In this document: one piece after another, positions 5,293-60,608 of the stretch
How the letters are laid out: every line of letters starts with the position of its first letter
How positions within the stretch are numbered: position 1 is the stretch's first letter
IMG/VR virus record: IMGVR_UViG_3300030328_000942
Location: 1-60,898 of that record
Length of the DNA stretch: 60,898 nt
Reading direction: 5' to 3' (one strand)
From: a virus
Program-made: the position numbers and the translations under genes
The notes under the pieces: model-generated
The model's input: only the letters and a program-made list of their open reading frames with translations
Told to the model about the DNA's origin: nothing
Databases searched by the model: none

Positions 5293-5323
5293 GAGGGGTG
5301 TCTTCAAAGACACCTCTCTTTTT
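5293..5323 (+). terminator. Intrinsic terminator containing the palindrome
   Basis: Palindrome 5298-5313 extended by G-C, G.T, G-C, A-T and G-C to a 12-bp stem, followed by TTTTT at 5319-5323. It is 26 bases after the stop of the SSB-like gene, so it should end the left early transcript. Confidence 0.8.
5298..5313. repeat. Palindrome copy 5
   Basis: Perfect, centre CA, forms the stem of the terminator at 5293-5323. Confidence 0.9.
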
Positions 5324-14800: not shown

Positions 14801-17800
14801 TACTACGTTTCATTTTAGCTCTTTGCTCATCCACAAGACGCATAACCTTTTCCATTTGCCTCTGCATCTGCTCAGGTGTTTTTATGTCATTCACGGCATT
14901 AATAAACCTATTTATCTGTGCTTGAGTATAATCTTGTGACTTAGGTAGTACAGTTCTAATATAATTTTTTAGTTGGGTTTTTAATTCTTGTAAGTTTTGA
15001 GCCCCTATAGTTCTGTCCTTTAAGGTTTTCTTTAATTGGGAAATTTGTTGAGATACATTTTTATTTCCTCTATACCCAAGACTTCTATCTAAACCTACAC
15101 GTAGTTCCATTTGAACTGTGTCAGTTTGTTGTTTGTATGTTGGGTGTGCTTGAATTAACTCTTGAGCTTTTTGTCTTATCTCTGAAAAAGTTTTCACTCT
15201 CTTCTTGCCAATTATATTAGCTCTTCCTGATGTAGCAAATTTTTCTAATGCTATTTTAATGTCATTAAACATTTGAGCCGCCACTTGTATACCGCCCTCA
15301 ACTCTTTGAAACTCAGAAGGCATTTCACCAAACACATCTACTTTATATGTTAAAGCAGTATCTATGTCTGCTTTTTTAAATCCTCTTCCTTTTAAAACCT
15401 CACGAATAGTTGCATCTGAAAACCCATTTTCTCTACCCTTCTTTACTACATCAGTTATAGATAAGTCTGTACTAAATGCTACTTCGGGATTCTTCATCTT
15501 CTTTAACTGACTATCAGTCATAGGTAATTTTTTCCCTGCGAATATATCTGCAAGAGCGGACCCAATAAATTCATCAAGGGTTAAGGCTTGTATTTCTTCT
15601 GCACTTAAGTCTTGGGTTTGTTTAAACTGTGACTTGATATAGTTCCACATACCAAGAAGCCATTCTTTGAACTTAGATTTAATGGAAGCATCCGCTATAG
15701 TTTGACCTTTATTTCCAATCAGAATAGCCATTGTTTCATTAGCTGCTCTTGCTTTATCTCCGTCAAACTTTTTTAGTTGTCGCTGATACTCTTCTGTTTG
15801 TTCTACAAGAGTAACCCCTTTTGCGTAGATAGTTCTACCTTTCTTTGTGGTCTTTAAATAATCTGTCCACACGTGTCCCATCTCGTGAATAGAAGTGTTA
15901 TGCAGTGCAGAAGTGGAATTATGTACGTCAGGATTGATGTATATATCTCCATCCACTGTGACACCATAAACTGTTTGACCACCTTTCTTATACTTCATTA
16001 CATTATCTTGAGACATTACTGTTTCAAAAGTAGCTTTGTCAGTAGTAATATTAGTTTGTGGAAATGATAGATTCATAAATGCAGTTAGCTTAGTTGCATT
16101 GTCTACATTACCTTGTGATATAGCTCCTACAAATTCAAGGTTAGGCATACCGATTTGTACACCAAGCGTTTCGGTAAGTATACTTCCTACACTTGACGGT
16201 GCAAGTTCACCCGCTTCCGGCATAGTTTTTCTATCTTCTACCGATGCCCGTTCTCTTTGTTTCTGCGTAACTTTTTTTCCTTTCGCCTCTGATTTAATTA
16301 ATCCTCCCATAGCATTTTGATATGCTTGAGGAAATGCCTTTACAAGGGAAACAGGATTTTCTAATATTCCTATACTTTTTCCTTTAACACCAAATGGATA
16401 ATTAGGATGAGTGCTTTCTAACACTTCAGGATTTAACACATCTACTCCTTGTAAAGCCACGATGCTTCGATTAGGTACGTTAGCTAACTGTGGTTCTGTA
16501 AGTATATCTGTTATCTCTGCAAGGTGAACTAATTTAAAGGCATCTTTTTCCATACCCTCTATTAATATATTAGGTATAAGTTTTTGTCCTTTAGTTGCCG
16601 TCTTTTTTGTTCCCGGCTTATTTGGTTCACCAAACGTAAATGTTTTAAGAAACTCTGTACGAGTAGGTAAGTTTAGTTTTTGTAAGAACTCTACTGATAC
16701 CACATCATCTAAAGTTTCAGGTTGTTGTTCGTTAATTAATTCTATAACATTTTTAAGTCCCGCTATTTCTTTAGCATAATTTTTATTGGTTAATGGAGAT
16801 TTTTTCCCTGAATCAATAGCTGCTTGTTTAGTTGCAATCTTTTTGTTTATCGCCCCTACAAGAGCCTCTAACGCCTTTTTACGGTTAACCTCAGGTATCT
16901 TACTTAAGTTGTCTCTAAACACTCTAAAAGTAGCCTCATTTGAAAGGATAGAACCTTCACCCATTTTTACTACCGGCATTGGAACAAGACCGTTGTATTC
17001 CGGATTGGCTGCCCAAAACTCTTCAAAGGTTGGTTTGTTTGCTTCGTAAACTGCAGTAGCTTTCTCTATTATATTACTTGCCTCTGTGTCTGTGGTGTTT
17101 GCCCAAGCTAAGTTTTGATTACCTTCAGTTCCTGTAAATCCTATACCTCCTTTTAAATTATCAATCGTGGTATTAGTTTGAGGATTCACAACATTACCTG
17201 TAGTAAGTTGGTCTGATATAGTAAATATAACAGGGACTCCATTAATAATTTCTAAAGACCCAATACTATTTATATCTGAATCAGTCCTTTGGTTTATATC
17301 ATTTACATCTATTGTAGACTCACTAACTGTTTCATCTAAATTAGTTTCTACATTTCCGGATGCTAACTCATTTATAGCCTCAGTAATTTGTGCTACCTCA
17401 TCTGTGTTAGGAACAAACTTACCTTCTTGCTTAAACTGTACATTACCATCTTCAATACGAGTACGTTTATTTCTTAACTCTTCAATTAAAGCTACTTTAG
17501 TTGCTCTGTTTCTTTTAGATTTTTTTATCTCCTCAATTTCAGCATCTATCTTATTTAATTCTTTTTGAATTGTTTTATTTTTTTGCTTATTGATTTTATT
17601 TACACGAGCTACTTCTGCTTTATATTCTCTCTTTAATTCTTTTATATCCTCTTTGTAGTTATCGATTTCCGCTTTTGCATCTTGTCTTAAGTCTGCTTTT
17701 TCTGCACTTGTTAGTCCTTTCTTTGCAAGGTCTTTTTTTAGTTGTTGTTTAGTATTTTCAATCTCAACATTTATATCTTCAATTTCTCCATCAAGCTCAG

Positions 17801-20800
17801 CTTTCGCATCTGCTTTAATCTCTGCCGGAGTAACCGGAGTGCTAAAAGTATATTCATCTCCAAACCCCTCTTCGGTTTCTGCTTCTTCTTTTGTTGCAGC
17901 TCTTTTCCCTTTCTTTGTAGACACCTCTACAGGTGGGGTAACTTCTTCTGTAGTTACTTCTTCTGTAGTAACCTCTTGTGTAGGTGTAACCTCTTCGGTA
18001 GCTACATCTTCTGTCGCTACATCTTCTTGGAATTTCGGAGGTGTTTTATAGTCTTGATACAAATGTTCCGCATTTTTTTCTGCTTGTTTTTTGGTAGGAA
18101 AATATTCAATGATATACGCCTCTTCCAATCCTCTTACGGGACTATCAAAACCGGTATCATCAAAATCCTCCGTGACCTCCATAGTTACACTCCATCTTCC
18201 ATCAGGGTTAACCGCTTCTCCCACTTCATTTATTTTCCCTCTATTTTCAATTGTAAACTTATAAAGAGGTGTTGTCGCTACATATACCCCTGCTCTTTGT
18301 TTCTTCCACTTTAGCTTCTTAGGTTGTTTTTTTATTGCCGCTTCTATCTTCGCTTTTTTCTCAGCCGGAGTAAGCTCGGTAGTAGATTCAACAACAGTTT
18401 CTCCCTCTAACATAGCCTCCATTTCAGCAACTGATTCTGCTTGTGTCTTTGAAGACACCATTTCATCTACACGCAATTGATTTGCACGAGTTTTTACAAC
18501 TCGTTTTTGAAATTCAGAAAGTTTTTGATTGGCTATTTGTTTGTCTGCAATACCTGCAAGTATTCTATCAAGACGGGATTGGTCAATAGTTTTATTATCA
18601 TAAGCTTGAACATCAGCTATAGTGGGTTGCTTAAGAGATTTAGGAACAACAATAGTTTCTGATTCTGTATCTACTGACACCTCCGCAGCTTTACGTTGTT
18701 TGTTTTCTTTGAAGATTCTTGCTGCTTCATTCATATTAGCAAAACTTTCTTCACGCAACTCAACTGCTTCTTCATTGGTTATATCACCATTGTTTAGAGC
18801 TTGTGTAATAGCTTTTGTTTTTTCTCTTCTTTGTTTACCTGTATCTTCATTTACTTCTATGGATGATAAAGGGTTATTCCCCACCACCTGTGGTGTTTCT
18901 ACCTCACTCTCCTGAGTGGTCGTAGATTCTGTGGTTTGTTCTTGAACGCCCCGTAACGATTCTTCCATCGTTTCCATATTTCCGGTTTGTTGATTTTCAT
19001 CCACTGTTCCTGTTTCTTGCTTTGAAATGGCATCTTGTCCAAATTTATCGGTTACTAATTCACTTACTTTTTCATCGTTGTCTATCGTTATGTTTGCTGC
19101 TTTTAATTCTTTAGGGGACATATCCATTATACGGCTCAAAAATTTTGAACGCTTCAGTGATTTCCCGTCTATTGTATATTTTGATTTTGCATCTGTTCTA
19201 ATGTCTACACCGGAAGTTTGATTCTCATTTAGACCTACAATCCCTGCGAGGTTAGTTTGAAATCCTTGTCCAAAAGTATTGCCTTGTTCTATTTGTGTAT
19301 CAGTAGCTGACTCAATATTTGGTCTAACAGTTTTAGTCTCTACCAACTCATTAAGCTCGGCTTTTATTTCTTTTAATTTACCTGAGAAAACTTCCCTTCT
19401 ATTAGATGAAGATTCAAGCTCTTGTTTTGCTGCCATCAACTCCATCGTTCTATTCAATACTTCAGGTGAAGATTTACCTTCTGTGGCGTTTAAAACATTT
19501 TGTGCGTCTTGCCTTAAGCCTAAGTTTACCTGTATTCTTTGGTTAGTTTCTGTGCTTATCTGTCCAAGCTTGTGCATATTGTTTGCCCAACTTGAAACCT
19601 TTGTAGGACTTGGAGCAAAAAATCCTTTAAGCTCATTATTTAAACCTCTTATAGAAGAGATGTCATTAGCTATAGTAGTGTTGTTTTGTGCACGTAAATC
19701 TAAAGCCGTATTTAGAGCCGCAAATGGAGCGTTGTTTCCAAGACCACCCATTGCTTCTGCAAATATCTCCTTCATCTCTATTTTATCTCCGGCTGAAATT
19801 TGTGCTGCTAATTCACCTGTCGCTTCTGCAAAAGGGTCAAACACTACACGTTCTCCTAATTGCACCGCTACTCTTCGTCCAAAAGAAGCAGTCTTTCCTG
19901 CGTTAAATACTCTACCGGCTAAACCTGAAGACAACATATCTACCACCGCAATTGGAATACCTCTTTGTGCTCCTCTCACATTTCCTTTCTTCCACACTAA
20001 AGGGTCGTTTAAAGCGGCAGTCATATCTTCAGGGTCATTTATATTATAACCCTCTTTACGAGCTACATCTAAAATAGCATTCGTGTATTCTAATGCGTAG
20101 GATGTGGCTGCAAATCCTGTCCTTAAACCCCATATAGCTCCGGCTGCTGCACCACCTCCCGTAGTAACTACACCACCGGGTCCTGTAACAAAACCTGTAG
20201 CACCTATACCTGCACCTATACCTGTTCCGGTTGCAGTTGTAGCTGCAATAATTTTAGTACCATACGGCAGCATTTGGTTTATACTATTAGCCGCCATACT
20301 AAACATCAACTCTGCGGGATTATCAGAGAATGCATCCCAAGCCTCACGAAAACCTTTAGCTCTATGCCATCTTCCCATAGCTCTACTTGTTTCTTCTGTA
20401 TTACTTGCATCTAAATAATCTACTATTCTTTGTGCAAGTTCAGCCGTGCTTTCATCGTCATCACCTTCAAGACCTAATGCCATTTTTAATATTTCATTAC
20501 CGGCTTTACCTCTATACCATCCTTCATCTACTTGCTGCATAAAACCTCCCCAATTATCTACAAGCTCTCCTCTTAAATTTTCATCAAACTTTCCGCTTAA
20601 ATAGGTTTGGGCTACTTCATATTCATTAGCAGCCAATGATGATACATCTTTAGTTGCTTTATAAGATGTAAGAATTGCATCTTGCATCTCTTTACCATCA
20701 TCATCTGTGGCGTTGTAATCTTTTAATTCATCTATGGTTAGTCCAAACTCTGCTAAAGATTTAGCCTCTAATTCATTACTAACATATTTTGCAGATGCGT

Positions 20801-36168: not shown

Positions 36169-36202
36169 AAAAAAAAGGGAAGTGTCTTTAAAGACACTCC
36201 CT
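36169..36202 (-). terminator. Terminator after the capsid gene, containing the palindrome
   Basis: On the - strand GGGAGTGTCTTTAAAGACAC is followed by an imperfect right arm (one mismatch) and then eight T (A-run at 36169-36176). It lies 15 bases after the capsid stop. The palindrome gives the stem and the flanks add pairs. Confidence 0.75.
36182..36197. repeat. Palindrome copy 10
   Basis: Perfect, centre TA, stem of the terminator at 36169-36202. Confidence 0.9.
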
Positions 36203-52795: not shown

Positions 52796-54400
52796 TTATT
52801 TGGTGTCATAACTACGTGCCATTGTTACAATTGCATTGGTAGATAAAATAGTAACCGCTACCGATACTGCATTCTGTAAAGCTTGTCTTGTAACCTTAAC
52901 AGGGTCAATCACCCCAAGAGTCATTAGATAGCCATACTTTTCTTTTTTTACATCATATCCATATAGAGCTCCTTTACAATCATCATAGATTACATCAGCA
53001 TCTAATCCTGCGTTCTCTAAGATTTGATAAAGCGGTGCTTTAAGGGATTCAGCTAAAACTGCGTAAGCAGTTTTTTTTGCGTAATCTTTTTCAGAAGATT
53101 CTTTTATAGAATAACTTTTATGAAAGTTGTATAATGATAATCCACCTCCCGGTAGTATACCTTCTTCAAGTGCAGAGCGTACTGCACATACCGCATCATC
53201 TACACGGTCATATAATTCTTTCTGCTCAAGGTCAGTGTTACCTCCCACATATACCACTCCTATCCCACCGGATAGCGAAGCAATACGTTGGTTAATAAAC
53301 TCACGGTTTGTTTTATCTTTTTCATTTTTGTGAGCCTCCTGAAGTTGAGCTATTCTTTCAGTTACTTCTTCTGTCGTCTCTTCATCATCCTTGACGATGA
53401 CCGTTGAGTCCCGGCTAACTATCACCTTAGCACAGTGACCCAAATCGTTGAAATTAATCAAACTCAAGTCATCGCCTGTCTTTTCACTAAAATACTTAGC
53501 ACCTACACTTATCGCAATATCTTGCATAAGCTCGTGTTGCCTGTATCCAAAGTCAGGAGGGTTTATCGTACAAACCTTTAATCCATTCTTAATTACATTA
53601 GCCGCTAAAGTATTTACTACATTAGTTGAGCAATGACCAATCAATAAAAGTTTTTTACCTTCATTGATAATTGGTTTAAGAACATTTTCAATTTGTAATA
53701 TGTTATTTATCTCAGTGTCGCATACTAATACATAAGTGTCTTCAAAGACACACTCGTCTCTCTTTTGGTCATTGATAAATAAGTTAGATGCATATCCTCT
53801 TTTTACCTTAATCCCTTTTGTGGTTTCATAATAGGTTGAGGAGGTTTTACTTTTCTCTACTGTTACTACACCATCTTTACCTACACTCTCATACACATCA
53901 GCTATGATATCACCCACTTGCTTATCATTGTTCGCTGAGATAATAGCTACGTCACGTAATCTTTTTGGGTCAAGTGTTTTACCTTTTACCTTTAGCGACT
54001 TCGATATCTGTTTGGTTTCTTCTACGATGTGTCTTAATACTTCGGTTCGATTGTCGTTATCAATTAATTCGGTTCCTGCATTTACTAATGCCTCTGCTAA
54101 TACAATAGCAGTTGTGGTTCCATCACCGGCTGAGGATGCAGTTCTATCGGCTGCCTCTTTCATCATCCTAACCGCAAGGTTCTCTACCGGGTCTAATAAT
54201 GAAATAGACTTCGCTACAGTCACACCGTCTTTTGTTACAGTGATTCCGTGTAAGTGTTCGGGTGATTCTATTAATACAGTATTACCTCTTGGACCTAATG
54301 TTGACTTAACTGCATTAGCTATTTTATTTATACCGCTTATAAGTTTGGTTCTACCTTCATCAGAAAAATGAAGTTCTTTGGGAGTGAATCCTTGTTGCAT
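52796..54400 (-). CDS. groEL: Chaperonin GroEL (Hsp60)
   Basis: 534 residues. ATP-binding motifs: LGPRGN (about 35-40), TKDGVTVAK (56-64) and AGDGTTTA (91-98). Apical domain GYASNLFIND, lacking the usual length of loops; intermediate LSGGIGVVYVGG near 373-384; LEEGILPGGG near 409-418. The C-terminal GGM tail is missing (ends TMARSYDTK). Phage chaperonins of this kind help fold capsid or tail proteins. A perfect palindrome copy lies in the apical domain coding region (CVFEDT, residues 217-222). Transcribed first, GroES last. Confidence 0.9.
   Translation of the reverse strand: MQQGFTPKELHFSDEGRTKLISGINKIANAVKSTLGPRGNTVLIESPEHLHGITVTKDGVTVAKSISLLDPVENLAVRMMKEAADRTASSAGDGTTTAIVLAEALVNAGTELIDNDNRTEVLRHIVEETKQISKSLKVKGKTLDPKRLRDVAIISANNDKQVGDIIADVYESVGKDGVVTVEKSKTSSTYYETTKGIKVKRGYASNLFINDQKRDECVFEDTYVLVCDTEINNILQIENVLKPIINEGKKLLLIGHCSTNVVNTLAANVIKNGLKVCTINPPDFGYRQHELMQDIAISVGAKYFSEKTGDDLSLINFNDLGHCAKVIVSRDSTVIVKDDEETTEEVTERIAQLQEAHKNEKDKTNREFINQRIASLSGGIGVVYVGGNTDLEQKELYDRVDDAVCAVRSALEEGILPGGGLSLYNFHKSYSIKESSEKDYAKKTAYAVLAESLKAPLYQILENAGLDADVIYDDCKGALYGYDVKKEKYGYLMTLGVIDPVKVTRQALQNAVSVAVTILSTNAIVTMARSYDTK
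53736..53751. repeat. Palindrome copy 12
   Basis: Perfect, centre CA, inside groEL (apical domain), - strand reading CVFEDT, a different frame from most gene-internal copies. Confidence 0.9.
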
Positions 54401-55498: not shown

Positions 55499-56146
55499 AT
55501 GAGAAATTTAATGCAAATCGAGGCAGACTTTTTAGCATCTGCACAAGTTCGTAGCCAAGTTAACTTTGCTACAATCGAGAATCTAATCACTGAGGTAGCT
55601 GATGCGAAGAAATCGAAGTTCGACAAATCACTGAAGTTAGCGAAGTTAGTACACGAATCTGTAGTATGGTTTAACGAAGATAGAACTAAGACTCAGTTAG
55701 AGGAGGAAGGAATCGAATGGAGCAATGTAGAAGTATTTTTTAACAGAGTATTTGGATGGCAAAAGTCGTTTGGCTACAAGATGGCTAAGGCAGGTAAATT
55801 ACAATTTACTGAGCCATCTGTGGTTACGAAGTTCAAGAGAAAATGTACTACTGCAGAGAACAATGGCGAGGATGTAAGAAGAAGTATTGAAGCTTTATTG
55901 AAGTTCGCTAAAAATGAGGAGAATGGTACAGAGGGAGAGAATGAGGTTAGCAGAGGGAAAGCATTGGCAACATTCAGTATCGCTAAAGATGGATTGAATG
56001 GTGACAAAGGAGTTTCTGCAAGACTTACGAGAGATGGTCAAGTATCTATTAGTGGTGAATTTGAAAATGAGGATGTTTCAAGAAGAGTAGCGGGTTTATT
56101 CGCTGAGTTGAAATTGGAGTTAGAGAGATACAATCTCAATCAGTAA
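55499..56146 (+). CDS. Unknown protein, 215 aa
   Basis: Starts MRNLMQIEADFLASAQVRSQ. N-terminal 120 residues mostly helical (FATIENLITEVADAKKSKFDKSLKLAKLVHESVVWF...VEVFFNRVFGWQKSFGYKMAKAGKLQ); GWQKSFGYKMAKAGKL resembles a helix-turn-helix recognition segment. The C-terminal 90 residues are acidic and beta-type. Also, this start MRNL and its leader are repeated in the next gene, 56259. First gene of the ribozyme-punctuated operon. Probably a regulator or DNA-binding protein; not certain. Confidence 0.6.
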   Translation: MRNLMQIEADFLASAQVRSQVNFATIENLITEVADAKKSKFDKSLKLAKLVHESVVWFNEDRTKTQLEEEGIEWSNVEVFFNRVFGWQKSFGYKMAKAGKLQFTEPSVVTKFKRKCTTAENNGEDVRRSIEALLKFAKNEENGTEGENEVSRGKALATFSIAKDGLNGDKGVSARLTRDGQVSISGEFENEDVSRRVAGLFAELKLELERYNLNQ

Positions 56147-56154
56147 TCAAACAA

Positions 56155-56182
56155 GGGGTAGTGTCTTCAAAGACACTATCCT
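56155..56182 (+). other. Palindrome hairpin directly before ribozyme 1
   Basis: Palindrome 56161-56176 extended by A-T, T-A, G.T, G-C, G-C and G.T to a 13-bp stem. Its last base (56182) is also the first base of ribozyme stem III, so the two structures abut and share one base. Confidence 0.75.
56161..56176. repeat. Palindrome copy 14
   Basis: Perfect, centre CA, in the hairpin at 56155-56182. Confidence 0.9.
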
Positions 56183-56232
56183 CTGTCCACAGATGAGTGT
56201 CTGTGCTGATGAGTTCAAAAGAACGAAACAGA
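56182..56232 (+). ncRNA. Hammerhead ribozyme 1 (type III)
   Basis: Stem III TCTG/CAGA (56182-56185 with 56229-56232), GUC cleavage triplet ending at C56187, stem I CACAGA/TCTGTG with loop TGAGTG, core CTGATGA (56206-56212), stem II GTTC/GAAC with loop AAAA, core GAAA (56225-56228). All invariant core bases are present. Cleavage expected between 56187 and 56188, leaving the amidoligase mRNA with a 5'-OH, about 71 bases before its ATG. Confidence 0.9.
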
Positions 56233-56258
56233 AAACCAACAAATAATTAAATTAAATT

Positions 56259-57266
56259 ATGAGAAATTTAAGTCAAAATGGAGTTACTTTCACTACTCAC
56301 GATGAGCCATCGAGAGCGAGAGTTTCTTCTTATGGGAGCAAACCGCTACCATACAAAATTAACAAAGCTGAGTCTGTTGATATCAATGGGCTACCGAGCA
56401 GTGCAAGAAAAAACTTGTACACTGCTGATGGCGGAACAGAGTCATTGTTCACTATCGGTATGGAGTTCGAAAAAGTTCGCTTTCATAGAGGAGCAGTGCA
56501 AGAGTATGCATTGTTCTGCGGATTTGAACACGATGGTAGTTGTGGAGCTGAAGCAGTTACTCACATCTTACCATTGGTAGATAAGTCAATGTGGAGAACG
56601 AAAGTTTTCAATATGTTTGCTGAAGCGAAGAAAATCATTGAGGATGAGTATTCTCCATCTAATGTGAAGTGCGGTGGTCACATTACATTGGGAGTTAAAA
56701 ATGTAAGTGGTAGAGAGTTATCTGATAGACTGAAGAAGTTCAGTGGATTAGTGATGGCTATCTACAGACACAGAGTCTGTAACTACTACTGCAGAGGTAA
56801 CTTTAGAATGGACACATCTGATGAGTATGGTAGTAAGTATACTATTGCTAACTACAAGACTCTTGGTGATGATGGAGTAGTTGAGTTTAGAGTTCCATCG
56901 AGATTCACATCAGTGAAGCAGACAATCCGAAGATATGAGTTCTTTTATCAGATGGTTGACTTTGCGATGAACAAACAAAATTCATCTCTACATCATTTCT
57001 GTAATGCGGTTAGACCAATCCTAATGTCTATGTATGATAACGACACTGAGAAAGTTAACAAGACCATCGAGTTAGCAAAGGAGTTTCAAAAGGTTATCAA
57101 TGGTGGTAAGATTGATGAGAAGACTTGCGGATGGTTTGAGGGATGGTGGAGTTCTAATACTCAGTTAAACTATTTCTTCGGTGGAAGAAGAAGTGACTAC
57201 AAAAGGAATTTCAGTCCATCTGAATACACAGATGTAAGGAAGTTCAAAGAGGAGCAATACTTTTAA
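56259..57266 (+). CDS. Amidoligase-like enzyme
   Basis: 335 residues. Features of the amidoligase family (COOH-NH2 ligases of the glutamine-synthetase/GCS fold): an N-terminal FTIGMEFEKVRFHRG (E-x-E metal site near residues 70-72), HDGSCGAEAVTHILPL (D-x-S-x-G-x-E-V/A-x-x-P-L type), KCGGHITLGVKN (the C-G-x-H-x-H/T site, about 147-158) and VEFRVPSRF (E-x-R). It would form an amide or isopeptide bond using ATP. Flanked by ribozymes on both sides and by a GAT-II/GGCT fusion further on, the setting known for phage amidoligase systems. Substrate unknown. Confidence 0.75.
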   Translation: MRNLSQNGVTFTTHDEPSRARVSSYGSKPLPYKINKAESVDINGLPSSARKNLYTADGGTESLFTIGMEFEKVRFHRGAVQEYALFCGFEHDGSCGAEAVTHILPLVDKSMWRTKVFNMFAEAKKIIEDEYSPSNVKCGGHITLGVKNVSGRELSDRLKKFSGLVMAIYRHRVCNYYCRGNFRMDTSDEYGSKYTIANYKTLGDDGVVEFRVPSRFTSVKQTIRRYEFFYQMVDFAMNKQNSSLHHFCNAVRPILMSMYDNDTEKVNKTIELAKEFQKVINGGKIDEKTCGWFEGWWSSNTQLNYFFGGRRSDYKRNFSPSEYTDVRKFKEEQYF

Positions 57267-57301
57267 CCTCAACACATCCTAAGCAAGATGTAAAACTGCT
57301 T

Positions 57302-57352
57302 TCTGTATGGTAGTGAGTGCTACCACTGATGATGCCAAAAGGTTGAAACAGA
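57302..57352 (+). ncRNA. Hammerhead ribozyme 2 (type III)
   Basis: Stem III TCTG/CAGA (57302-57305 with 57349-57352), same as ribozyme 1; GUA cleavage triplet ending at A57307; stem I TGGTAG/CTACCA with the same loop TGAGTG; CTGATGA at 57326-57332; stem II weak (C-C/G-G plus G.T, T.T closing), loop AAAA; GAAA at 57345-57348. Expected cut 57307/57308. A short hairpin ACATC/GATGT (about 57274-57292) precedes it instead of the palindrome. Confidence 0.85.
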
Positions 57353-57376
57353 TAAATAAATTTAAATTAAATAAAA

Positions 57377-57595
57377 ATGAAAACATTTAACACATTTCAA
57401 AACGCAACGCTTAACCTAATCACATTAATGGTCTATTCAATGGCAGTTAGAGTTCTAATTGACATATGGGTAAACAATGTAAATGATTTTAGGTGGATAG
57501 AACTAACCTATGCAAGTGCATCGAGCATCTTTGTAGCGATACTTGGTTGGTTTCTGCTATTGATAAACATCTCAGTATGGAAAGAAAATAAGTAA
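57377..57595 (+). CDS. Small two-span membrane protein, 72 aa
   Basis: Starts MKTFNTFQNATLNLITLMVY. Hydrophobic segments at about 12-30 (LNLITLMVYSMAVRVLIDIW) and 47-65 (YASASSIFVAILGWFLLLI). Sits between two ribozymes; its stop TAA is directly next to the first base of ribozyme 3. Role unknown, but membrane localisation between an amidoligase and other genes suggests envelope modification. Confidence 0.65.
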   Translation: MKTFNTFQNATLNLITLMVYSMAVRVLIDIWVNNVNDFRWIELTYASASSIFVAILGWFLLLINISVWKENK

Positions 57596-57659
57596 GGCAT
57601 ACTGATGAGTTCTCAATGAACGAAAGGGTGGTGTCTTCAAAGACACTACTCTCTATGTC
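57596..57659 (+). ncRNA. Hammerhead ribozyme 3 (type I) with the palindrome as stem III
   Basis: Stem I GGCATA/TATGTC (57596-57601 with 57654-57659, one G.T), CTGATGA 57602-57608, stem II GTTC/GAAC, loop TCAAT, GAAA 57622-57625, stem III 12-13 bp (A57625 to U57652), made of the palindrome 57631-57646 plus five outer pairs, then H17 = C57653. Cleavage between 57653 and 57654. The ribozyme starts on the base after the stop codon of the membrane protein. Confidence 0.9.
57631..57646. repeat. Palindrome copy 15
   Basis: Perfect, centre CA, forms the distal part of stem III of ribozyme 3. Confidence 0.9.
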
Positions 57660-57686
57660 AAACATTAAAATAAGAAACGATTAAAT

Positions 57687-58052
57687 ATGAAAACTTTAAC
57701 ACAATTACAAGAAGATTTTAAAGCATTAAACGATAGCTATAAAGCCAATCCATTACCTGCAGGAAAAGAATACAATGCATTTGTTAAGAAATGGAAGAGA
57801 CTTGAAGCTAAAATTAGAAACTACAATAACTCTACTAACATTATGAAAAGAGATGGACTTAAAGTTACTAAGCAATTCGCTGATTATAAAGTTGAATTTA
57901 AAGGAGTTGTTGCTCTAGTTTTTTTAGATGGATGTGTGACAGACTATTGGGCAGTTAATGTAATAGAAGGAAATGTAGAGTTTGAAATTGAAACTTTTGA
58001 AACTAAAGCCGAAGCAATTTGGTACATATATTCAGAATTAAGAAACGATTAA
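57687..58052 (+). CDS. Unknown protein, 121 aa
   Basis: Starts MKTLTQLQEDFKALNDSYKA. N-terminal basic coil (FVKKWKRLEAKIRNYNNSTN), then a beta sheet (DYKVEFKGVVALVFLDGCVTDYWAVNVIEGNVEFEIETFE) and a final helix. Resembles small phage early proteins; no recognised function. Starts 28 bases after ribozyme 3. Confidence 0.6.
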   Translation: MKTLTQLQEDFKALNDSYKANPLPAGKEYNAFVKKWKRLEAKIRNYNNSTNIMKRDGLKVTKQFADYKVEFKGVVALVFLDGCVTDYWAVNVIEGNVEFEIETFETKAEAIWYIYSELRND

Positions 58053-58075
58053 ATAACAATTAAAATCAAATAACT

Positions 58076-58489
58076 ATGGAAACAATTAAATTTAAAAATG
58101 TAGAGCCAAGTCACGAAGTTGAAAGAGACTTTGACTTGAAGTACGAAAGAATCAAATCTGTTTACAAAGGCAGAATAGATGCTTGTACTTGTGGGTGTGA
58201 GGGAGAGTTCCATTACACTAAACACTTTGCTGAGTACAAATCTAAAGTTGAGGGCAACGACTTACTACTACCATTGGCAGACGATGGTGAAGTTGAGTTT
58301 CTAATCCAAGATGCTTTAGTTTATTCTGACACTGCAAGATTCTTTGTGCAGATGAGTGGTGGATACTGCATCAAAGTTCCTACTCACACTGAGTGGAAAG
58401 ATGCAGAGGGTGGATATGTTCAAATGGGTTACATCATTGACTTACATTGGAAGGACATCAAATTAAATCAAACTAAAATAAATTTATAA
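58076..58489 (+). CDS. Unknown protein with Cys/His site, 137 aa
   Basis: Starts METIKFKNVEPSHEVERDFD. CTCGCEGEFHYTKHFAEYKSK (about 38-58) has three Cys and two His that could bind zinc. The rest is beta-rich and acidic, ending DLHWKDIKLNQ. No family recognised. Next gene begins two bases after its stop. Confidence 0.6.
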   Translation: METIKFKNVEPSHEVERDFDLKYERIKSVYKGRIDACTCGCEGEFHYTKHFAEYKSKVEGNDLLLPLADDGEVEFLIQDALVYSDTARFFVQMSGGYCIKVPTHTEWKDAEGGYVQMGYIIDLHWKDIKLNQTKINL

Positions 58490-58491
58490 TT

Positions 58492-58821
58492 ATGGAAACT
58501 AAATTCGAATGGACTGATGAAGCAGTCAAATCATTTACACAAGTCTACTCTTCAAACTTTAGTAGCAAACTTGTAGACTTTCCTTGTAGCTACAAGGACT
58601 ATAGTGGAAAGAACATCCACGAGAAGATGGAGCAGTTCAAGTTGGACTACAAGCCACAAGAGAAAGTAACATATTGCATCACAATTAAATCTGTGTATGG
58701 TAACTATGGAACAAATGTCAAAGAGTTCAACAACGAAAAGCATTTCGAGAATTGGTATGCAATGATGAGTCGAAAGGGACACAAGATAGTTGGAGTTGAA
58801 TTATTAAAAGGCGAGGAATAA
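58492..58821 (+). CDS. Unknown protein, 109 aa
   Basis: Starts METKFEWTDEAVKSFTQVYS. The C-terminal half (VTYCITIKSVYGNYGTNVKEFNNEKHFENWYAMMSRKGHKIVGVELL) is an alpha/beta segment seen in small phage proteins of Bacteroidetes. Its stop overlaps the ATG of the next gene (TAATG). Function unknown. Confidence 0.6.
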   Translation: METKFEWTDEAVKSFTQVYSSNFSSKLVDFPCSYKDYSGKNIHEKMEQFKLDYKPQEKVTYCITIKSVYGNYGTNVKEFNNEKHFENWYAMMSRKGHKIVGVELLKGEE

Positions 58822-58982
58822 TGGAAAGACAGAAATACTTTAAGGTCAGATATGCAGGGAAGCTAATTCAAGTTATCCCTGCTCACACGAAATGGGAAGC
58901 AATCGATAGGGTGTACCACGAGAACATCGGAAAGTACAAATGGATTGTCAGAGAAAAATTTACTGCCGTAATCAGTAGATAG
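58821..58982 (+). CDS. Small basic protein, 53 aa
   Basis: ATG at 58821 overlaps the previous stop; TAG at 58980-58982. MERQKYFKVRYAGKLIQVIP then AHTKWEAIDRVYHENIGKYK and a short basic end. Two strands and a helix, like many Bacteroidetes phage small proteins with K-W-E-A-I-D-x-V-Y. Function unknown. Followed by a promoter at 58996. Confidence 0.65.
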   Translation: MERQKYFKVRYAGKLIQVIPAHTKWEAIDRVYHENIGKYKWIVREKFTAVISR

Positions 58983-58995
58983 ATAAAAAAAAGAT

Positions 58996-59026
58996 TTGGT
59001 AGTGTCGATTTATTGTCGTATCTTTG
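58996..59026 (+). promoter_or_regulatory. Bacteroidetes-type promoter
   Basis: TTG 58996-58998, 20-base spacer, TATCTTTG 59019-59026. It drives the GAT-II/GGCT gene with a leader of about 60 bases containing a palindrome hairpin. Confidence 0.75.
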
Positions 59027-59046
59027 TCTAAATCAAACATTAATCA

Positions 59047-59076
59047 GTAGTTCTGTGTCTTCAAAGACACTGCTAC
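59047..59076 (+). other. Leader hairpin built on the palindrome
   Basis: Palindrome 59055-59070, internal loop, then outer GTAG/CTAC (59047-59050 with 59073-59076). It lies in the 5' leader, 15 bases before the ATG at 59092; a role in translation control is possible. Confidence 0.55.
59055..59070. repeat. Palindrome copy 16
   Basis: Perfect, centre CA, in the leader hairpin at 59047-59076. Confidence 0.9.
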
Positions 59077-59091
59077 ACAAACAGAAACACT

Positions 59092-60165
59092 ATGTGTATT
59101 ATTATTGTAAAACAAAAAGGTCAAGATGTACCAAGAGAAATTCTCAAAACATCTGCCCGTATTAATCCTCACGGATTAGGAATCGTATGGCTCGATACAT
59201 ACGAAGTAACTTATCACAAATCAAAGGAGTATAATTTACTTGACAACAACAGACCATACATCGCACACTTTAGATATGCGACCATTGGTAAAATCTGTAA
59301 AGAAAATACTCATCCGTTTGTATGCGGGAATAATAAAGATGAGTTACTAATGATGAACGGAACTGCTCACGGATATGGAAGTAAGGCGATGACAGATACA
59401 GAAGACTTAGCAATCAGACTTGGTAAATCATCAAGACAAAGTTGGGCTAAGCAGTTGAAGAAGTTCGATGCGAGATTCGTATCCATCAACACAAGAACGA
59501 GGTCGTTTCAAATCTACAACAAGTTGGCTTGGAAAAAGAGAGATGGTGTATGGTATTCAAAAGGCAATGTGTTGGAAGATAATCTTGTCGCAGTATATGG
59601 CACACTAAAGAAAGGTTATGGAAATTACTATAGCTACCTTACCTCATCCAAGCATCTTGGTAATGGAACAACAAAAGAGAAGTATCCATTGGTGGTCGAT
59701 GGACTACCTTACCTCATCGAAGAAAAAGGAAAAGGGTACAATGTAAAGGTTGATGTGTTTAAGGTCAGCGATGACAAGCTAAAACATTTAGACCAATTGG
59801 AATCTCATCCACGATGGTATGTGAGAAAACAAGTTCCAATCATAGTGAAAGGTAAAGAGTTACTATGTTGGGTGTACTTTAATCCATCTGCTAAATCAAG
59901 ATGGAATGGCTCAAACCATACTGAGTCTTACGAATATCAAAGACCAAATAATTATTTCAGATATGTGGAGGAGCCACAGATAGTTGTGGATGATAGGCAA
60001 ACGAATATGTTTGATGACTTAGGTGAGTGTGATGTAGAATCATCCTCTCCTTACTGCATCGAATGTTTCAATGACTTAGTATACGATGGCTTAGGAAACG
60101 ACTACCAATGTGTAGGGTGTGGTGCGGTATACGAGAAGTCAATGATAGAAAGTACAAATTGTTAA
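59092..60165 (+). CDS. Fusion: class II glutamine amidotransferase + gamma-glutamylcyclotransferase + zinc ribbon
   Basis: 357 residues. N-terminus MCIIIVKQKG has the Cys2 nucleophile of Ntn-type class II amidotransferases, with YIAHFRYATIG near 59-69 and MMNGTAHGYGSK near 90-101. Residues about 160-280 are AIG2/GGCT-like: LVAVYGTLKKGYGNY and KHLDQLESHPRWYVRKQV (E in the catalytic position). The C-terminal CIECFND...CVGCGAVYE (about 322-345) is a zinc ribbon. GAT-II gives ammonia from glutamine or cuts gamma-glutamyl links; GGCT cleaves gamma-glutamyl amides. Works with the amidoligase upstream, by inference. Start ATG chosen for Cys2. Confidence 0.8.
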   Translation: MCIIIVKQKGQDVPREILKTSARINPHGLGIVWLDTYEVTYHKSKEYNLLDNNRPYIAHFRYATIGKICKENTHPFVCGNNKDELLMMNGTAHGYGSKAMTDTEDLAIRLGKSSRQSWAKQLKKFDARFVSINTRTRSFQIYNKLAWKKRDGVWYSKGNVLEDNLVAVYGTLKKGYGNYYSYLTSSKHLGNGTTKEKYPLVVDGLPYLIEEKGKGYNVKVDVFKVSDDKLKHLDQLESHPRWYVRKQVPIIVKGKELLCWVYFNPSAKSRWNGSNHTESYEYQRPNNYFRYVEEPQIVVDDRQTNMFDDLGECDVESSSPYCIECFNDLVYDGLGNDYQCVGCGAVYEKSMIESTNC

Positions 60166-60174
60166 TTGTTGGTT

Positions 60175-60204
60175 GGGGGTGGTGTCTTTAAAGACACTGC
60201 TCCC
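60175..60204 (+). other. Palindrome hairpin directly before ribozyme 4
   Basis: Palindrome 60182-60197 extended by G.T, T.G, G-C, G.T, G-C, G-C and G-C. It ends at 60204, the first base of ribozyme stem III; same one-base sharing as at 56182. Confidence 0.75.
60182..60197. repeat. Palindrome copy 17
   Basis: Perfect, centre TA, in the hairpin at 60175-60204. Confidence 0.9.
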
Positions 60205-60254
60205 GTGTTTACGGATGAGTGTCCGTACTGATGATTCCGAAAGGATGAAACACG
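60204..60254 (+). ncRNA. Hammerhead ribozyme 4 (type III)
   Basis: Stem III CGTG/CACG (60204-60207 with 60251-60254); GUU triplet ending at U60209; stem I TACGGA/TCCGTA with loop TGAGTG (as in ribozymes 1 and 2); CTGATGA 60228-60234; stem II TCC/GGA with GAAA loop (closing T.T); GAAA 60247-60250. Stem III differs from ribozymes 1 and 2, but pairs are kept on both sides. Cut expected 60209/60210. GUU is a permitted, usually slower, triplet. Confidence 0.85.
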
Positions 60255-60275
60255 AAACATTAAAACACAAATCAA

Positions 60276-60608
60276 ATGAAAGACACAATAGAACATCTAA
60301 GTGTAGAGCAAATCGAATCTCTTTACGAGAAAACTTTTGGAAATCCAATAGACCATTATCCAAGTATGGAAGTATCTCAAATGATAGAGGAGATTGTAGA
60401 AGAACACTTATCACTAAAGACTATGAATAAAGACTATGTTATTTACGACCAAGCTAACGACAGAATGTTATGCTTTGGTAACGGGGATGTAATTTTATTT
60501 GCAGACCGCACAGAAGCAGTTGAAGATTTGTATGGCAATGAAGTTGTTGTACAATTCCAAGACTTATCAAAAGAGAATCAATTAATAATTTTAAATCAAA
60601 TCAAATAA
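60276..60608 (+). CDS. Unknown protein, 110 aa
   Basis: Starts MKDTIEHLSVEQIESLYEKT. EQIESLYEKTFGNPIDHYPSMEVSQMIEEIVEEHL helical, then beta-type YVIYDQANDRMLCFGNGDVILFADRTEAVEDLYG. No recognised family. 22 bases after ribozyme 4 and two bases before the gene at 60611. Confidence 0.6.
   Translation: MKDTIEHLSVEQIESLYEKTFGNPIDHYPSMEVSQMIEEIVEEHLSLKTMNKDYVIYDQANDRMLCFGNGDVILFADRTEAVEDLYGNEVVVQFQDLSKENQLIILNQIK

Follow-up and report, generated by a model that had tools for sequence, protein, structure and literature searches.

The 60,898-base IMG/VR virus record analysed here, hereafter the window, carries four hammerhead ribozymes, three of type III and one of type I, each lying between genes on the same (+) strand (Table 1). 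In a comparison with more than 100 related viral sequences, the ribozymes are associated more closely with the gene before them than with the gene after, making the upstream family the conserved partner, and a hairpin or pseudoknot usually ends a few nucleotides ahead of the predicted cut. This arrangement suggests that the hammerheads form mRNA 3' ends by cleavage instead of by transcription termination, tuned by their position, a reading to which we give somewhat better than an even chance.

The best match to the terminase of the virus is Podoviridae sp. ctfjg026 (73%), followed by Flavobacterium phages (genus Elemovirus) and Cellulophaga phages, affinities that point to a Bacteroidetes-type, podophage-like virus. 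The phage also encodes its own GroEL (52796-54400 on the (-) strand; PHROG 5725, E 1.3e-135), and GroES/GroEL are annotated in relatives too.

Table 1. Ribozymes, flanking genes and associated structures in the window
Feature	Position	Strand	Remarks
Gene upstream of ribozyme 1, 215 aa	55499..56146	+	ORF; cluster 3
Hairpin GGGGTAGTGTCTTCAAAGACACTATCCT, 12 bp	56155..56182	+	Ends 5 nt ahead of cut 1
Type III hammerhead 1	56181..56233	+	Predicted cut 56187/56188 (GUC); 10.1-11.1 is G-C; 77.3 bits with R1
Amidoligase-like gene, 335 aa	56259..57266	+	Named by analogy only; no Pfam family
H-type pseudoknot ACATC-ct-AAGCA-a-GATGT-aaaac-TGCTT	57274..57301	+	Replaces hairpin; ends 6 nt ahead of cut 2
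Type III hammerhead 2	57301..57353	+	Predicted cut 57307/57308 (GUA); U-U mismatch at 10.1-11.1; 69.3 bits with R1
Small protein gene, 72 aa, hydrophobic	57377..57595	+	Between ribozymes 2 and 3; cluster 5
Type I hammerhead 3	57594..57662	+	Predicted cut 57653/57654 (CUC); 84.3 bits with R2
Stem III of type I hammerhead	57625-57652	+	Same GGTGTCTTCAAAGACAC hairpin
Gene downstream of ribozyme 3, 121 aa	57687..58052	+	
Possible internal promoter TTG-N20-TATCTTTG	58996..59026	+	Upstream of 59092 gene; weak evidence
Class II glutamine amidotransferase / gamma-glutamyl cyclotransferase fusion (GATase-GGCT), 357 aa	59092..60165	+	
Hairpin TGGGGGTGGTGTCTTTAAAGACACTGCTCCCG, 14 bp	60174..60205	+	Ends 4 nt ahead of cut 4
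Type III hammerhead 4	60203..60255	+	Predicted cut 60209/60210 (GUU); U-U mismatch at 10.1-11.1; 71.7 bits with R1
Gene downstream of ribozyme 4, 110 aa	60276..60608	+	

Hammerheads in the window and in related viruses

All four elements contain the core C3 U G A N G A ... G12 A A and the A15.1-U16.1 pair, with an N-U-H cut site between stems III and I, and the string CTGATGA-N12-GAAA occurs three times in the window against 0.07 occurrences expected from shuffles. Each type III copy has a perfect 6-bp stem I around the loop TGAGTG and a stem III of 5 bp. The type I element, which overlaps at its 5' edge with the stop codon of the gene before it, folds with stems I, II and III of 6, 4 and 12 bp. 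All four are hammerhead ribozymes, with cleavage itself predicted from sequence; their permutations, cut sites and coordinates, and the stem I loop shared by the type III copies, are as a preliminary description of this DNA had given them.

A scan of the window with Rfam, a check that the same description had proposed, found none of the four hammerheads at the gathering threshold. At E<=10 RF00008 matched two of them, 56180-56234 at 42.4 bits with an E-value of 6.6e-7 and 60202-60256 at 35.1 bits with an E-value of 7.8e-5, scores that fall short of the 48.5-bit cut-off; the type III element at 57302 and the type I element were not matched at that setting. Because Rfam scans alone understate the hammerhead set, custom models were built from relatives, R1 for type III and R2 for type I, whose scores in the window (69-84 bits) are not independent, since the window sequences sat in both training alignments. 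As the Rfam hammerhead cut-offs miss most of the group, phage annotation probably undercounts hammerheads.

The preliminary description had also proposed comparing related genomes for pairing conserved despite changed bases, and this is what the relatives contain. When 2.9 million viral contigs were scanned for a pattern of loop and core, in which no stem was specified, 66 stretches were found, and all six stem I pairs are present in 81 of 83 occurrences (a few contigs being counted twice, and the window included). In the type III alignment (n=55), 92% of stem cells pair, the covariation score is 0.736 as against 0.22 in shuffled alignments, and 13 of 16 pairs have double changes, far above shuffled and slid controls. 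In the type I alignment (n=16) 99.3% of stem cells pair, in a set found by a search that required pairing. All three helices are thus backed by covariation in both type III and type I. Among 143 type III ribozymes, 113 have TGAGTG or TGTGTG as loop I, a proportion partly imposed by the search patterns, and loop II is A-rich; these are the loops between which a hammerhead tertiary contact would form.

Between one and five type III copies were found in 50 of the 51 records searched, most of which had been chosen via a ribozyme, and among such records the window's set of four loses the unusual character first ascribed to it. The type III copies of a record lie on a single strand, within about 6 kb in most multi-copy records, and in some records type I copies are interspersed, the strong ones numbering as many as about four in a single record. 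The Elemovirus genomes searched have one type III and one type I copy each (in elemoA_7-9A, NC_055852, predicted at 19084-19138 and 17287-17349, respectively, both on the minus strand), and Cellulophaga phage phi18:3 has one type I copy between gp050 and gp049 (NC_021794:21901-21960, minus strand). In MW202828, a relative with the same genes, the hammerhead search found none, so the module is dispensable. One further hammerhead match, in L014, was discarded for its stem I of four pairs out of six and its missing stem II.

The type III pattern was also found in bacterial-genome stretches, 20 of 29 of which are in assemblies of Patescibacteria (Saccharibacteria, Paceibacterota and others), where contamination by phage contigs is possible. 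All members of this set (L111, L112, L115-L120, L122, L125, L126, L129-L136 and L138) have six of six stem I pairs, and some also carry a structure ahead of the cut.

Upstream genes and structures ahead of the cut

When the flanking ORFs of 108 ribozymes were clustered, the chance that two ribozymes share a family was 0.113 for the upstream gene versus 0.018 for the downstream gene, the latter figure being approximate because the downstream ORF was picked mechanically. The recurrent upstream families are the amidoligase-like family, the GATase-GGCT fusion (PF06094, E 3.3e-21; PF13230 weak) and the family of the 55499 gene, and the downstream gene usually differs. The product of the 55499 gene had no match in Pfam and PHROG searches; in nine of the array loci examined, a member of its family is followed by a hammerhead of type III or type I. 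In a second sample, for which loci were fetched by the two proteins alone, disregarding ribozymes, a type III hammerhead comes immediately after 60 of 79 amidoligase-like genes, and a hammerhead immediately after 46 of 80 GATase-GGCT genes.

The region between the upstream stop codon and the cut is also structured. Of 143 unique type III ribozymes, 105 are preceded by a stem that has 6 bp or more and ends no more than 8 nt from the cut, as against 13% in dinucleotide shuffles, and in 86 of these 105 it ends 4-6 nt before the cut, directly against stem III. Some of the remaining type III copies have H-type pseudoknots, one being ribozyme 2 of the window, whose pseudoknot is near-identical in sequence to that of its closest relative, L248; neither hairpin nor pseudoknot is found in 29 of the 143 by the definitions applied. 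Stem III itself serves as the hairpin in the type I ribozymes, so that both permutations would leave the upstream message with a hairpin-capped 3' end. Hairpin sequences vary widely, which argues that structure is what is kept.

Ahead of ribozymes 1 and 4 the hairpin is GTGTCTTCAAAGACAC or its TTTAAA variant, lengthened to 12-14 bp. This near-palindrome, or a close variant, occurs genome-wide and also within coding genes, with sites in the window at 689, 2015, 3901, 4845, 5298, 8016, 11823, 18443, 25400, 36182, 43373, 53736, 56161, 57631, 59055 and 60182. Inside ORFs across the viral loci, its asymmetric form is found 40 times in the sense and 14 times in the antisense orientation. At 5298 the 16-mer hairpin is followed by a U-tract and makes a terminator, and the related site at 36182 also has a U-tract. 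The palindrome was rejected as the sole explanation of the junctions, since other junctions have unrelated hairpins or pseudoknots.

If the hammerheads do form 3' ends, which is the most economical account, polymerase would read on through the junction without terminating, a hairpin or pseudoknot would fold just past the stop codon, and the ribozyme would cut a few nucleotides beyond. The upstream message would then end in a hairpin, which should block 3'-to-5' exonucleases, and the downstream message would start with a 5'-OH about 20 nt ahead of its start codon, carrying either the spent ribozyme (type III) or a short open leader (type I). The device would amount to a terminator-like hairpin with a cutter in place of the U-tract. 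Cleavage, protection of the 3' end and tuning of the rate we infer alike from sequence. That a polycistronic message is cut into units, as the preliminary description proposed, is well supported by the position and conservation of the ribozymes. Its assignment of all four to one early operon is weakened by the possible internal promoter at 58996-59026, itself a weak match of a kind (Bacteroidetes-like) that occurs 14 times in the window versus 9.4 expected, with no clear enrichment over shuffles; timing is not readable from sequence.

The ribozymes might instead serve mainly the downstream unit, their 5'-OH ends resisting 5'-dependent decay or uncoupling expression. The next start codon often lies 11-25 nt past the ribozyme, and a type III ribozyme would stay attached to the downstream message, giving it a structured leader. 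The type III copy of Elemovirus, moreover, is an operon leader, placed ahead of the first gene with no obvious upstream gene or hairpin; 3'-end formation cannot explain this copy, which may have a downstream-side role. As a general account, however, a downstream function is improbable, at roughly one chance in five by our estimate, since the downstream families are diverse where the upstream ones recur, the hairpin beside the cut is left unexplained, and the type I ribozyme would stay on the upstream message. Protection of downstream units by 5'-OH ends, as first proposed, thus fits less well than formation of upstream 3' ends, given a conserved upstream family, a hairpin that adjoins the cut, and the replacement of the ribozyme by tRNA-like minihelices at some junctions (below).

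Another reading of the hairpin is that it only aids the ribozyme, and has no role in message stability: it could do no more than stack against stem III, which is short at 4-6 bp, or insulate it. In most type III copies the hairpin does abut stem III, the gap of 4-6 nt being the 5' strand of that stem, and some ribozymes in Patescibacteria assemblies have such structures too. Hairpins nevertheless persist without a ribozyme at the same junctions (L168, L184, L201 and L224) and also precede minihelices, and are thus independent of the ribozyme; a hairpin of the same sequence also forms a terminator. A role confined to assisting the ribozyme is accordingly rather unlikely.

Junction-specific mismatches and possible alternative processing elements

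The first pair of stem II, 10.1-11.1, which in hammerheads is commonly but not obligatorily Watson-Crick, is so in the 56181 and 57594 elements and U-U in those at 57301 and 60203. Across the relatives this pair follows the upstream gene: it is U-U or A-A in 34 of 44 ribozymes after GATase-GGCT versus 6 of 60 after the amidoligase-like gene (Fisher 1.3e-12, uncorrected for ancestry and with some contigs near-duplicates), and G-C in 54 of these 60. Median pairwise identity among the upstream proteins is about 45% for one family and 54% for the other, and the stem I sequences are varied. The counted sets contain neither of the intermediate pairs, U-A and A-U, at 10.1-11.1. Nucleotide 17 varies with the same pair, the 143 ribozymes including 64 with C17 and G-C, 34 with A17 and U-U, and four with U17 and A-A; U-U occurs with C17 in none of 40 in this set and in one case in the protein-fetched sample. 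Strict complementarity between N17 and N10.1 was rejected on account of U17 with U-U, A17 with G-C, and the one C17 with U-U.

The U-U mismatch is not a new core variant, as it was already described as a natural one by Perreault et al. (PMC3088659), where it allows more cleavage than other mispairs; the 57301 and 60203 elements are classed as variant hammerheads because U-U is such a known and better-tolerated variant. We read the mismatch ribozymes as probably attenuated but working. In the 3'-end model, the junction would then set the rate, with G-C after the amidoligase-like gene and U-U or A-A after GATase-GGCT. The mismatch ribozymes could alternatively be slow, regulated switches, activated by a condition or factor, with cutting at the GATase-GGCT junction delayed or only partial. 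The junction specificity of U-U and A-A and the exclusion of C17 from U-U among the 143 ribozymes would suit a switch, as would the suggestion of Perreault et al. that slow phage variants respond to conditions (PMC3088659). Yet no ligand-binding domain or additional conserved structure was seen, and U-U is the best tolerated mismatch in the same source, so that these ribozymes are perhaps simply somewhat slower; regulation in this sense seems distinctly unlikely, with about one chance in eight.

At the 19 amidoligase-like junctions not scored as hammerhead, the sequences were inspected by eye. Three have hammerheads in which A9 is followed by an additional U (L248, L253 and L277, which read CTGATGA-U-GACC...GGTC-GAAAC, the extra U falling between A9 and stem II), one has a core change (L288), eight have a tRNA-like minihelix and two are pseudoknot-like, with the last five having other structure, a hairpin only, or nothing. 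That some relatives have only a hairpin, or nothing, at these junctions counts against the 3'-end model. Downstream of the amidoligase-like gene in L269 and L300, two similar structured sequences (CAGAAACGG...GGATTTGGTGGTAGAAAC) occupy the position of the ribozyme and are possibly another processing RNA.

The minihelices are 40-45 nt long and consist of an acceptor-like stem, a linker of 9-13 nt that usually contains AUGGU, and a T-arm with a TTCGA loop; the acceptor and T-stem add up to 11-13 bp, and there is no D-stem and no anticodon arm. A scan for this pattern gave 54 matches versus 2 in shuffled sequence, 32 of which are clean after tRNA fragments and long linkers are dropped, and no such element in the window. 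A hairpin lies within 12 nt upstream of 31 of the 54, often the same 16-mer at a distance of 1-3 nt, and several of the minihelices at amidoligase-like junctions sit right behind this hairpin. Examples, often directly behind the GTGTC hairpin, are L275:3104-3148, L314:3610-3654, L273:5041-5080 and L245:3640-3682. ARAGORN and Rfam called none of the minihelices tested, and full tRNA genes were rejected as occupants of the ribozyme-less junctions since ARAGORN calls none there. Matches in Maribacter phage Panino were set aside because their fold is not that of the minihelix, and a covariance model was abandoned because variable splits between acceptor and T-stem throw rows out of register.

RNase P recognises acceptor/T-arm helices, a specificity by which the minihelix would be a processing site. 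If cut by RNase P, it would be expected to yield a 5'-phosphate, and equivalent junctions would then have different 5' ends, which again speaks against a function centred on the downstream message. Taken more broadly, the 3'-end reading becomes one of a modular device, in which a protective hairpin or pseudoknot is joined to an interchangeable cutter (a hammerhead of either type, or a minihelix on which RNase P or RNase Z of the host would act) and the speed is set per junction via 10.1-11.1. This extended version is offered tentatively, as it has, in our view, only about one chance in three.

The role of phage hammerheads has been a question since at least 2011, and becomes testable in cultured phages, as the Flavobacterium phage elemo group and Cellulophaga phage phi18:3 are carriers whose laboratory hosts are named in their records (Flavobacterium sp. 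BAL314 for elemoA_7-9A and Cellulophaga baltica #18 for phi18:3). The phage group provides many natural replicates at the same gene junctions, natural rate variants, and a possible protein-enzyme substitute for the ribozyme. The specific role open to test is 3'-end formation and message dosage within the operon.

Comparison with known systems

Contrary to the initial statement that hammerheads are known singly in phages, clusters of them in prophages were reported, with tests of activity, in 2011. Perreault et al. described prophage hammerheads flanking single genes or short blocks, for which message processing was proposed, and showed cleavage of triple arrays both in vitro and in E. coli (PMC3088659). 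In those arrays, as in the window, several hammerheads flank genes on one strand of a phage genome, and U10.1-U11.1 variants are included. According to that paper the flanking genes vary in identity, and the parts of it drawn on here describe no hairpin beside the cut, whereas here the upstream genes recur within one phage group, together with the placement of the hairpin and junction-specific 10.1-11.1 mismatches. The same source bears on whether paired cuts might release RNA for circularisation or splicing by a ligase. In the window two cuts around one gene would give matching 5'-OH and cyclic-phosphate ends, but spliced or circular products were sought for the published arrays and not found (PMC3088659), and no RNA ligase was found among the approximately 20 window proteins scanned; excision of this kind is very improbable.

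The window elements have the core, permutation, cut sites and stems of RF00008 (Hammerhead_3) and of type I hammerheads, differing in that the copies score under the curated cut-off, two have U-U at 10.1-11.1, and the type I copy is unmatched by Rfam. An analogy to a different system is provided by the eukaryotic lncRNA MALAT1 and its mascRNA, where RNase P cuts before a tRNA-like element and a protective structure lies at the new 3' end. As would be the case here, a protective RNA structure stands just ahead of the processing site and transcription termination is unneeded; RNase P takes the place of the ribozyme, however, and the analogy extends only to the minihelix junctions of the relatives.

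Theta ribozymes are small, self-cleaving RNAs found next to tRNA genes in phages of Bacteroidota and others (PMC10879173). As in the reading preferred here, the proposal for them is that RNA 3' ends are made with no need of host enzymes, but they have an HDV-like fold and act on the 3' ends of tRNAs, whereas here the fold is that of a hammerhead and the substrates would be messages. Because prophage clusters were described by Perreault et al. (PMC3088659), an array of hammerheads is not new as a kind. The architecture, in which a hairpin and cutter are combined with a particular upstream gene and a junction-specific first pair of stem II, looks new.
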